A stretch of DNA of 64,000 nucleotides from Stygiobacter sp. RIFOXYC2_FULL_38_25 (GTDB taxonomy: Bacteria > Bacteroidota > Ignavibacteria > Ignavibacteriales > Melioribacteraceae), in assembly GCA_001803165.1 (NCBI GenBank), contig MHAZ01000001.1:124001-188000 (forward strand), in the 5' to 3' direction. Positions within the stretch are counted from its first letter, which is position 1; the number at the start of each line of letters is the position of its first letter. The notes beneath the pieces were generated by a model. It made no database searches. It had not been told where the DNA came from and saw nothing but the letters and a program-made list of their open reading frames with translations. A program made the position numbers and the translations under genes. Shown in pieces: positions 3,963-6,422 of the stretch.

Positions 3963-4277
3963 TTGTCAGAAACTTCAAAATATGATTTGTTCTTGGATGA
4001 ACTAAGTGCTCTTGAAAAGCAAATCTATATTTATATTCAAAAGGGAACTGAATTAGCCGAGACGAATCAAGGCTTAAACAACCGAATTTCCTTACTAGAA
4101 CGGGAAAATGAATCACTTAAGAAAAAAATAGTAGAAATTGAATCAAAAGTTAGTAGAACCTTGTTAAATGATCAGAACATTTTTGGTGACGATGCATTTA
4201 ACGTTGAAGAAAAAGAAGCATTGAAGCACAAGATTTCAGAATTGATAGCCAGAATTGACTATCATTTACGTTCATAA
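3963..4277 (+). CDS. Small coiled-coil protein upstream of zapA
   Basis: A 104-residue protein starting at a TTG that directly abuts the pheT stop. Residues of about 15-70 form a long heptad-patterned helix (LEKQIYIYIQKG, LNNRISLLERENESLKKKI), so a coiled-coil dimer is likely. It has no signal peptide, membrane segment or enzymatic motif. Its position next to zapA and its size and composition resemble ZapB-like accessory division proteins, but I see no specific sequence signature, so that role is inference from neighbourhood. The start is uncertain because only the TTG fits the spacing, and pheT sequence supplies any ribosome-binding site. Confidence 0.65.
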   Translation: MSETSKYDLFLDELSALEKQIYIYIQKGTELAETNQGLNNRISLLERENESLKKKIVEIESKVSRTLLNDQNIFGDDAFNVEEKEALKHKISELIARIDYHLRS

Positions 4278-4306
4278 CAATTTTGTTGGATGTAGGTTGG
4301 CTCAAA

Positions 4307-4606
4307 ATGACTGAAAAAAAGAAGCTTAAAGTAAAAATCTTTGATAGAGAATATTCACTACTAGTTGAAAACCAAGAAATAGCTGCTGAATTAGCTGAAT
4401 ACGTAAATTCTATAATGGAAGAAACACGCGACGAATTACCTGATCAACCAAAAGATACAATAGCAATTATTGCTGCTCTAAATATTGCTTATGATTTATT
4501 TGTTGAAAAGAATAGATTTCGTGAATTCAGCATTCAAGCTACAGACAAAGTGAAAAAGATTAAGCTTCTTCTTAACGAATCTAAGTCATTAGCCAACCAA
4601 TCGTAG
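4307..4606 (+). CDS. zapA: Cell division protein ZapA
   Basis: ZapA is a cytoplasmic protein that binds and bundles FtsZ filaments at the Z-ring. The 99-residue product has the family layout: an N-terminal beta-rich head (KLKVKIFDREYSLLVEN, with the typical I-x-x-x-Y-x-L pattern), the segment AELAEYVNSIMEETR, and a C-terminal coiled helix (IAIIAALNIAYDLFVEKNRF). A longer reading from a TTG at 4283 adds eight residues unlike the family, so I use the ATG at 4307. Neighbours are a coiled-coil protein upstream, then a probable 6S RNA and rny downstream. In many bacteria the 6S RNA gene follows zapA. Confidence 0.9.
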   Translation: MTEKKKLKVKIFDREYSLLVENQEIAAELAEYVNSIMEETRDELPDQPKDTIAIIAALNIAYDLFVEKNRFREFSIQATDKVKKIKLLLNESKSLANQS

Positions 4607-4610
4607 TTTA

Positions 4611-4808
4611 CCGCACTGCCGGTTTTATACGAAAGAACTAACAAATTATATAACCTAAGGGTTATTGACTCGCGGCGTGTATTACAGGCCTCACCCGATT
4701 CGTCGGGCTCTCGGTTTACCGGGACTAGTGGAAGTAAAAAGCGTCGGGCAATTCCCCACATTACGGGTAGATATAGTTCTTTTCAAGATAATTTACCGGC
4801 CAGTGCGG
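4611..4808 (+). ncRNA. ssrS: Probable 6S RNA
   Basis: About 198 nt of non-coding DNA between zapA and rny can fold into one long hairpin. Bases 4611-4618 pair perfectly with 4801-4808, 4619-4623 with 4795-4799 (one bulge), and 4632-4640 perfectly with 4774-4782. The interior is open, with short hairpins including CCCGA-TTCG-TCGGG and CTCGG-TTTA-CCGGG. A long closing stem, an internal bubble, the length of about 200 nt and the position after zapA are the known hallmarks of 6S RNA, which binds the RNA polymerase housekeeping holoenzyme and mimics an open promoter. I cannot run a covariance search, so the family name is inferred from structure and synteny. The strand assumes co-orientation with zapA. 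Confidence 0.72.
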
Positions 4809-4835
4809 AATATATATTTCTTATATGGAGGTCGG

Positions 4836-6422
4836 ATGGATAATATGTTGTTTGTTGTAGGTGGAGCAGTAGCAATAGCCGTTGCTGCGTTTTTACTTGG
4901 ATGGTTCTTAAATTCCAAAGTTGGCAAGAATAGCATTGAAACTGCAAAAAATAGTATTGAAGTCGCTAAAGAAAAATCAAAATCAATAATCGAAGATGCT
5001 GAAAAAGAAGCGAAACATCTTAAGCGTGAAAAACTATTAGAAGTTAAAGATGAATGGCTTAAGAAGAAGCAAGAGTTTGATGTAGATGTTAATGCTAAAA
5101 AACAGAAACTTCAAAACCATGAAAAACAGTTAGAAACCAGAGAAGAAAATCTTGAGAAGAAGTTTGAAGTAGTAACGCAAAAAGAAAAAGATATTAAAAT
5201 AGCTGAGAAGAATGTCGCTACCCAAAAACAAGAATTGGATAGAAAACACTCCGAGCTTGATAACTTGATTGTTGAGCAGAATGTTCGGCTCGAAAAGACA
5301 GCCGGATTAACATCTGAAGAAGCTAAAAAGATGTTAATGGAAAACATGATCAACAAAGCTAAGACCGATGCAGCACAATCAGTTAAAGAGATTCGCGATC
5401 AAGCTAAAGTTGATGCTAAAAAGGAATCACAAAAAATTGTTGTTCAAGCAATTCAAAGAACTGCAGTTGACCACTCCGTTGAATCCACTGTTTCGGTAGT
5501 TCAGATTCAAAATGATGAAATGAAGGGAAGAATTATTGGTCGCGAAGGAAGAAACATTCGCGCATTTGAAGCTGCCACCGGTGTTGATGTAATTGTTGAT
5601 GATACACCTGAAGCGGTTATTCTTTCAGCCTTCGATCAATTCCGTCGTGAAGTAGCAAGAATTTCATTGGAAAGATTAATCTCAGACGGCAGAATCCATC
5701 CGGCGCGTATTGAGGAAGTGGTTGCAAAAGTTCAATCTGAACTTGATGAAGAAATTCAGAAAGAAGGAGAGAACACTATAATTCAACTTGGTTTACACGG
5801 AGTTCACATCGAATTGGTTAAGCACATTGGCAAGATGAAATACCGTTCAAGCTACGGACAGAATTTACTTCAACACAGTATAGAAGTAGCCTACTTAACC
5901 GGCATCATGGCTGCTGAATTAGGATTCGATACCAACCTTGCTAGACGCGCAGGTTTATTACACGACGTAGGTAAAACAATTGATAGAAATGTCGAAGGTC
6001 CACACGCATTACTTGGCTACGATTTAACCAAGAAGTACAATGAACATCCGATTGTTGTTAACGCGGTAGGCTCTCACCATGAAGATATTGAAATGGAGCA
6101 TCCAATTGCTGCTTTAGTTCAAGCTGCCGATGCAATTAGCGGTGCAAGACCTGGCGCGAGACGCGAACCGCTTGAAAGTTATGTTAAACGATTAGAGAAT
6201 TTGGAAACTTTAGCTAAATCGTTTGAAGGCGTTGCCAAAACTTACGCAATACAAGCCGGACGTGAAGTTCGTGTTGTTGTAGAACCTGACAAAGTGGATG
6301 ATGTTTTTGCAGACCGTTTAGCAAATGATATCGCCGCAAAGATTCAAGAAGAAATGGAATATCCCGGACAGATTAAAGTTACTGTTATCCGCGAGTTAAG
6401 AAAAATAGCTTACGCAAAATAA
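4836..6422 (+). CDS. rny: Ribonuclease Y
   Basis: RNase Y is a membrane-anchored endoribonuclease that initiates mRNA decay. The 528-residue protein has an N-terminal transmembrane helix (residues about 3-24), a long charged coiled coil to about residue 200, a KH RNA-binding domain with GRIIGREGRNIRAFE, and an HD phosphohydrolase domain with the metal-binding LLHDVGK and GSHHED motifs. The ATG at 4836 is preceded by GGAGG and gives the standard family length. The frame stays open upstream to 4665, but that part lies in the predicted 6S RNA and does not resemble the family. A terminator follows the stop. Confidence 0.96.
   Translation: MDNMLFVVGGAVAIAVAAFLLGWFLNSKVGKNSIETAKNSIEVAKEKSKSIIEDAEKEAKHLKREKLLEVKDEWLKKKQEFDVDVNAKKQKLQNHEKQLETREENLEKKFEVVTQKEKDIKIAEKNVATQKQELDRKHSELDNLIVEQNVRLEKTAGLTSEEAKKMLMENMINKAKTDAAQSVKEIRDQAKVDAKKESQKIVVQAIQRTAVDHSVESTVSVVQIQNDEMKGRIIGREGRNIRAFEAATGVDVIVDDTPEAVILSAFDQFRREVARISLERLISDGRIHPARIEEVVAKVQSELDEEIQKEGENTIIQLGLHGVHIELVKHIGKMKYRSSYGQNLLQHSIEVAYLTGIMAAELGFDTNLARRAGLLHDVGKTIDRNVEGPHALLGYDLTKKYNEHPIVVNAVGSHHEDIEMEHPIAALVQAADAISGARPGARREPLESYVKRLENLETLAKSFEGVAKTYAIQAGREVRVVVEPDKVDDVFADRLANDIAAKIQEEMEYPGQIKVTVIRELRKIAYAK

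Follow-up and report, generated by a model that had tools for sequence, protein, structure and literature searches.

What lies in the gap between zapA and rny in this genome? The window (the whole 64-kb stretch of DNA that was analysed) carries at this place, on the plus strand, an element of 198 nt that begins 4 bases behind the zapA stop codon (4604-4606), at position 4611, and ends at 4808, 27 bases ahead of the rny ATG (4836); pheT lies upstream of this array and coaE downstream. A first-pass annotation, made from the letters alone, regarded the element as a probable 6S RNA. As described in PMC8876501, 6S RNA mimics an open promoter and occupies the active site of the holoenzyme that contains the main sigma factor; copying of a short product RNA by the enzyme opens stem P2 and so sets the 6S RNA free. 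According to PMC7641849, the 6S gene is usually located 3' of zapA in beta- and gamma-proteobacteria. The same position was claimed for the element, and the upstream gene was indeed recognized as zapA by Pfam (match at 4307-4606, E 3.5e-14).

Stems and fold of the element in the window

The three stems from which the 6S assignment had been made proved to be exact. Positions 4611-4618 (CCGCACTG) and 4801-4808 (CAGTGCGG) are perfect reverse complements of each other; 4619-4623 (CCGGT) exactly complement 4795-4799 (ACCGG), leaving C4800 as a one-base bulge; and 4632-4640 (AAAGAACTA) exactly complement 4774-4782 (TAGTTCTTT). The minimum free energy (MFE) of the element was -69.1 kcal/mol as compared with -50.9 +/- 3.96 kcal/mol for 200 dinucleotide shuffles (z -4.6), and no shuffle folded as well. 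The minus strand folds nearly as well (z -4.36), as expected from the long stems. The plus strand is favoured by frequent G-U pairs and by the U-tracts that are found 3' of the RNA outside the order Ignavibacteriales.

The annotation had also seen a large inner bubble between the stems. This was right for a central bubble of 16-18 nt per side; comparison with relatives (see below) showed that the rest of the region forms an apical stem, which is conserved, followed by a pair of small hairpins, H1 and H2. In the MFE structure of the window sequence on its own, P1, P2, H1 and H2 are all present; the consensus apical stem is absent, and an AUAACC/GGUUAU hairpin is formed in its place. The features are listed in the table.

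Features of the zapA-rny region of the window and the basis on which each was assigned
Feature	Position	Strand	Basis
Whole 6S-like RNA, from the 5' to the 3' end of the closing stem	4611..4808	+	Fold z -4.6; homologue family; relatives that match RF00013 over its full length
P1 closing stem, 5' arm	4611..4623	+	Exact complement; native arms pair better than between-species swaps
P1 closing stem, 3' arm, with bulged C4800	4795..4808	+	As for the P1 5' arm
P2, 5' arm (AAAGAACTA)	4632..4640	+	Presumed downstream duplex and product-RNA template; pairing kept in 17/19 changed loci
P2, 3' arm (TAGTTCTTT)	4774..4782	+	As for the P2 5' arm
Central bubble, 5' side	4641..4658	+	Unpaired in the consensus between supported helices; AACTA and AGGG on its flanks do not vary among 27 sequences
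Central bubble, 3' side	4758..4773	+	Directly after CCC, which is invariant in 27 sequences; in part of the order it can instead pair with bases 3' of P2
Apical stem, 5' strand	4659..4690	+	GGG 4659-4661, ATTG 4664-4667, CGGCG 4673-4677, TTAC 4682-4685, CC 4689-4690; covariation; absent from window MFE
Apical stem, 3' strand	4730..4757	+	GG 4730-4731, GTAA 4734-4737, CGTCG 4742-4746, CAAT 4749-4752, CCC 4755-4757; covariation; absent from window MFE
Apical hairpin H1	4694..4707	+	Covariation; two-hairpin tip in 50/50 order loci
Apical hairpin H2	4709..4724	+	As for H1
zapA, upstream neighbour	4307..4606	+	Pfam PF05164, E 3.5e-14
rny (RNase Y), downstream neighbour	4836..6422	+	Pfam PF12072 (RNase_Y_N), E 1.4e-46, plus HD and KH
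Last 15 zapA codons (14 scored)	4559..4603	+	Synonymous codon choice constrained in relatives; candidate for a promoter or a processing element, function inferred

Consensus structure and compensatory changes among relatives

Searching 97 genomes at the DNA level yielded 29 clear homologues, which were aligned; L001 (a duplicate) and L010 (its contig ends inside the RNA) had been left out before this alignment, A1. BLASTN at E<=1 matched 95 of the 97 genomes, a count that was not used since the weak matches are due to chance. Leaving out L020 and L030, which have long inserts in H1, and trimming to the core gave an alignment of 27 sequences (A2), from which the covariance model R1 was built. 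At E<=0.01, R1 matched 153 of 164 genomes of the order Ignavibacteriales and, at E<=0.05, 95 of 395 genomes sampled across the phylum, with a single match per matching genome in both sets. Fifty-five of the R1 matches lie outside the order; 40 were fetched, and each of the other 15 shares its genus with a fetched one. Twenty order loci (L217-L236) were left out of the RNA analyses. A search of named genomes with a pattern for the conserved core gave 55 stretches, mostly from Ignavibacteria, Ignavibacteriales, Melioribacter, Melioribacteraceae and 'Bacteroidetes bacterium' MAGs.

The consensus is a rod that consists of P1, P2, the central bubble, an apical stem (GGG/CCC, AUUG/CAAU, CGGCG/CGUCG, UUAC/GUAA and CC/GG) and the two hairpins. 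Rods of about 160-220 nt with a closing stem, a large central bubble and an interrupted apical stem are characteristic of 6S RNA, and the window's copy, at 198 nt, agrees with this. In A2, whose sequences were not fitted to the structure, 91.1% of the cells pair and 16 of 28 pairs have changed on both sides; none of 500 shuffles was as good on any of five measures, and versions of the structure slid along the alignment reached at most 57.0% paired, in a test that is not blind because the structure was drawn by eye from the same sequences and because pair counts helped to pick the columns for H2. When 94 sequences were aligned with the model, the covariation score was 0.551 against 0.173 for shuffled data, and 4/500 shuffles reached the measure of pairs changed on both sides (one of the five); this alignment leans towards the structure, and the covariation shuffles ignore the relatedness of the sequences.

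The two closing stems were also examined one by one. Nineteen loci have a P2 5' hexamer other than AAGAAC, and 17 of these keep 6/6 pairs, compared with 638/1425 (0.45) for swapped arms; the test takes the best hexamer within a 34-base stretch, and several of the variant loci are close kin. The native closing arms pair with -34.4 kcal/mol in the order and -39.8 kcal/mol outside it, versus -24.0 kcal/mol in both groups when arms were swapped between loci, and in 38/50 order loci and 38/44 outside loci they rank below the 5th percentile of the swaps made for the same locus. Mononucleotide shuffles served as the shuffled-arm controls (closing arms and bubble tests) and as the controls for the tip hairpins. 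Compensatory changes in related zapA-rny intervals, the check proposed together with the 6S assignment, were thus found in the 27 and 94 sequences as well as in P2, and the 6S reading was not refuted. As far as the sequences of relatives tell, the closing stem, the central bubble and the apical stem all have compensatory support.

These data also bear on the reading of the stretch as protein-coding, in the form of an N-terminal extension of rny (raw ORF 4665-6422), or as a spacer with accidental stems. The rny frame of the window does happen to be open from 4665. However, it is open through the core in 0/50 order loci, and 44/50 of them have none of the six frames fully open; moreover, the RNase_Y_N match lies inside the protein read from 4836, and a spacer with accidental stems is at odds with the covariation in the 27- and 94-sequence alignments. 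This reading is already contradicted by the sequences compared here, and we regard it as hardly credible.

The tip of the rod is forked. Two hairpins were obtained for 50/50 order loci (26% of shuffles) and for 36/44 loci outside the order (43% of shuffles); the remaining outside loci have three hairpins (6 loci) or one (2 loci). Both H1 and H2 show covariation in the 27- and 94-sequence alignments. The order of the window thus departs from the single terminal loop of 6S RNA. Such a loop is usual for 6S RNA and not defining, since 6S-1 RNAs that have been truncated and carry two short arms still go through the cycle in vitro, as reported in PMC8876501.

Relation to known 6S RNA families

The annotation had suggested a diverged form missed by standard annotation. 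This was borne out: no Rfam family reached its gathering score anywhere in the 64-kb window, a permissive Rfam scan of 4300-5100 found nothing for 6S even with E values as high as 10, and the 6S model RF00013 had no match in the window's own genome. RF00013, which was built independently of our alignments, matched 76 of the 395 phylum genomes at E<=0.1 and none of them (0/395) above its cut-off. Nine genomes, of which three belong to the window's order, were matched by both RF00013 and R1, and place and strand agreed in all nine. Conversely, R1 recovered 20/20 of the fetched RF00013 loci at the same place (the best 20 of 76). Of the 40 order genomes in the phylum sample, 3 were matched by RF00013 at E<=0.1, so that most members of the order, that of the window included, are too diverged for this model.

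Three relatives from the same order align to positions 1-187 of RF00013 (best E 7.8e-7 per genome), all below the cut-off, and each of them has 6S as its top match among 4227 Rfam families. When a first set of 10 loci was compared with 4227 Rfam families, 6S was the top match for 7; six of these had been chosen for a prior RF00013 match, unlike the seventh, L028. The other three, namely the window's locus (L002), L007 and L083, gave no 6S match at E<=1. In a second set of 12 loci compared with the same 4227 families, 6S was the top match for one and 11 had no 6S match at E<=1. Four RF00013 alignments of relatives span the 6S model from end to end with shared consensus letters. In these relatives, GGG...CCCAC, CA.GCC and GGAAG..AAA fall on matching letters of the 6S consensus, and the window has the same letters. 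The annotation, which had missed the proteobacterial 6S consensus in the sequence, was thus mistaken on this point, as residues of the 6S consensus are present.

The element thus shares with RF00013 the rod shape, built from a closing stem, a central bubble and an apical stem, the consensus letters around the apical stem and the zapA neighbour known from beta- and gamma-proteobacteria (PMC7641849). It differs in that relatives score below the Rfam cut-off and the window has no match; in addition, the Rfam 6S consensus ends in one hairpin whereas the tip is forked in the window's order, and rny lies downstream whereas FAU1/ygfA or EVE genes are given for beta- and gamma-proteobacteria in PMC7641849.

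Two further Rfam families from Bacteroidota were compared. For 6S-Flavo (RF01685), the zapA-rny interval holds 20/20 loci (the best 20 of 49; 19 above cut-off), and the RNA hence shares its interval with the window element. By eye, the two also resemble each other in the order of the elements, with an AAACUC/GAGUUU stem and GGG/CCC, and in a U-tract that follows the closing stem in L122, L130, L138 and L139; the Rfam structure has a single apical hairpin in place of the two in the window's order. R1 matched 0/20 of the RF01685 loci, so that the link of the window's family to 6S-Flavo is one of position and layout. In the window's genome, RF01685 gave sub-threshold matches elsewhere only (24.2 and 22.7 bits; E 0.79 and 1.76). 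The second family, Bacteroidales-1 (RF01693; Rfam: '6S-Bacteroidales RNA suggested'), is a proposed 6S RNA from the same phylum as the window element and had no match at E<=0.01 in the window's genome. Four of eight RF01693 loci lie between zapA and rny, all four below cut-off; the other four, unlike the window element, are without detected zapA or rny, and both above-cut-off loci are among these. 6S RNA is reported as detected in Bacteroides thetaiotaomicron, with evidence of product RNAs (PMC7366714), and is among the RNAs listed as detected in Flavobacterium psychrophilum (PMC9723704).

Structure alone cannot separate a 6S RNA from an RNA of the Ms1 type. Ms1 of Actinobacteria is described in PMC9130861 as structurally related to 6S RNA and as binding RNA polymerase, yet in the form of the core enzyme without sigma; it comes from another lineage. 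We consider such a core-binding look-alike very unlikely here: some relatives match the 6S covariance model over its full length and share its consensus letters, the gene order is held in common with 6S-Flavo, and for a Bacteroides 6S RNA there is evidence of product RNAs, as reported in PMC7366714.

Taken together, the exact stems, the fold (z -4.6), the R1 family, the full-length RF00013 matches in relatives and the zapA-rny gene order uphold the original 6S assignment, and the zapA-rny stretch is in all likelihood a 6S RNA gene. This reading rests on structure by comparison, on conservation, on Rfam 6S homology via relatives and on shared gene order. The copy in the window is very probably a diverged 6S RNA whose tip is forked and which current RNA-family models miss in the genome of the window.

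Gene order, transcription and proposed function

Gene order played no part in choosing the loci, and the ZapA profile used to score it was built from hits among the same loci. The order zapA-RNA-rny was found in 50/50 order loci and in 37/44 loci outside the order; zapA lies upstream in 92/94 loci overall and in 42/44 outside the order. Both genes are present in 46 of the 55 loci found with the conserved-core pattern, and the other nine end within 211 nt on the missing side. For the RF00013 loci, a midpoint test placed the RNA between zapA and rny in 19/20 (the best 20 of 76); the exception, taken to be L147, is a truncated locus that passes the profile-based check of gene order. In 7/44 copies outside the order, rny is absent from the 2.5 kb fetched downstream, and two of these seven are also without zapA. 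L099 and L119 keep zapA and the RNA, lack rny and have a convergent next gene, a natural separation of the 6S RNA from rny. L110 and L120 are R1 matches with neither zapA nor rny nearby; they could be relocated 6S genes or, possibly in the case of L120 (E 7.5e-4), a chance match.

A small ORF at 3963-4277, between pheT and zapA, had no Pfam match at E<=0.001. ORFs of similar size are found at the same place in L028, L082, L083, L099 and L119. By eye, the product of the window's ORF is coiled-coil-like, and its position hints at a ZapB-like partner.

The close association with rny raises the alternative that the element is a cis-acting rny leader, that is, a structured 5' UTR that governs translation or stability of the RNase Y transcript, for instance by autoregulation. 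With rny directly downstream in all 50 order loci and a run of at least 6 T located 15-75 nt behind the core in only 2 of them, transcripts may indeed reach rny. However, the same T run is found in 32/44 copies outside the order, which by this U-tract resemble separate transcripts, and the next gene is convergent in L099 and L119. Since seven outside copies have no rny within the 2.5 kb fetched downstream, the element is not simply an rny leader; furthermore, relatives match Rfam 6S. We therefore hold the leader explanation to be highly improbable. From the copies without rny, the two that also lack zapA and the 32 with a U-tract, the RNA appears to be free-standing in origin, and its terminator seems to have been lost in the window's order. 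With the U-tract rare there, the 6S RNA of the order is probably cut from a zapA-rny transcript or read through into one.

Signals for making the RNA may lie within zapA. Synonymous constraint at the end of zapA among 49 order-level sequences had a median of 1.41, versus 0.17 in the middle of the gene and 0.12 in rny, and 10/14 scored codons exceeded the 90th percentile of rny; as the sequences are related, this comparison falls short of a formal test. A raised value (0.53) was also obtained for the start of zapA. The favoured codons at the end are AAG CTT CTT. AAC. TCC, with TCC. CCA TCA closing the gene; in the window itself, the last six zapA codons deviate from the common pattern. An overlap of the end of zapA with a promoter or processing signal for the RNA would be expected to cause such constraint. 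No sigma-70-type promoter was found in 4250-4900. At the start of zapA (4316-4330), two lysines are each encoded by AAG in 48/49 sequences against a background of 0.23. A long-range helix between the conserved, reverse-complementary motifs at the start and end of zapA (AAGAAGCTTAA and TTAAGCTTCTT) was considered and rejected, as their variants are uncompensated.

The 3' side of the bubble was searched for signals as well. A TATAAT-like -10 element with at least 4/6 matches was dismissed: it occurs in 78% of order loci versus 66% of shuffles, and in 41% versus 42% outside the order. An alternative hairpin of the 3' bubble strand fell in the lowest tenth of its own swaps in 20/50 order loci (5 expected) and in 8/44 outside loci (4.4 expected). 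The formation of this hairpin upon opening of P2 is thus suggestive in the order and unsupported outside it. In L044, L035 and others, the 3' bubble strand can form a hairpin of 11-12 bp around the P2 3' arm, which is not general; the hairpin of some order loci resembles the release hairpin that PMC8876501 describes for E. coli 6S RNA.

By analogy with the 6S RNAs of E. coli and B. subtilis, we infer expression, polymerase binding, product RNA synthesis and physiology of the element as follows. The transcript would fold into a rod with a closing stem (P1 and P2), a central bubble and an apical stem that carries two hairpins. This rod would mimic an open promoter and hold RNA polymerase with its main sigma factor, such that many promoters would be less transcribed as growth slows. 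Transcription by the held polymerase, starting on the 5' side of the bubble and running into P2 (template around 4632-4645), would then give a short product RNA, and this synthesis would open P2 and free the enzyme.

In the literature searched (6S RNA with Ignavibacteria, Chlorobi, Chlorobium, zapA or ribonuclease Y), this RNA was not found described among the matches listed; the RNA may already be included in the survey of Wehner et al. 2014. Our results fill an annotation gap, in that the order apparently has a 6S RNA for which Rfam 15 makes no call in the scanned genomes. As 6S RNA is placed in the zapA-rny interval in branches of the phylum that are far apart, there is a positional handle for further finds, and the forked tip offers a natural way to test how large a part of the apical arm is needed by the polymerase. 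If the RNA is cut from the zapA-rny transcript, transcription control and the supply of RNase Y would be physically linked. A tentative and, as a whole, rather doubtful extension is that Ignavibacteria have a distinct 6S subfamily with a forked arm and a lost terminator, which is encoded in a zapA-6S-rny operon and released by cutting the very transcript that makes RNase Y, with a promoter or processing signal in the last zapA codons. If true, this would tie global control of transcription to mRNA decay.
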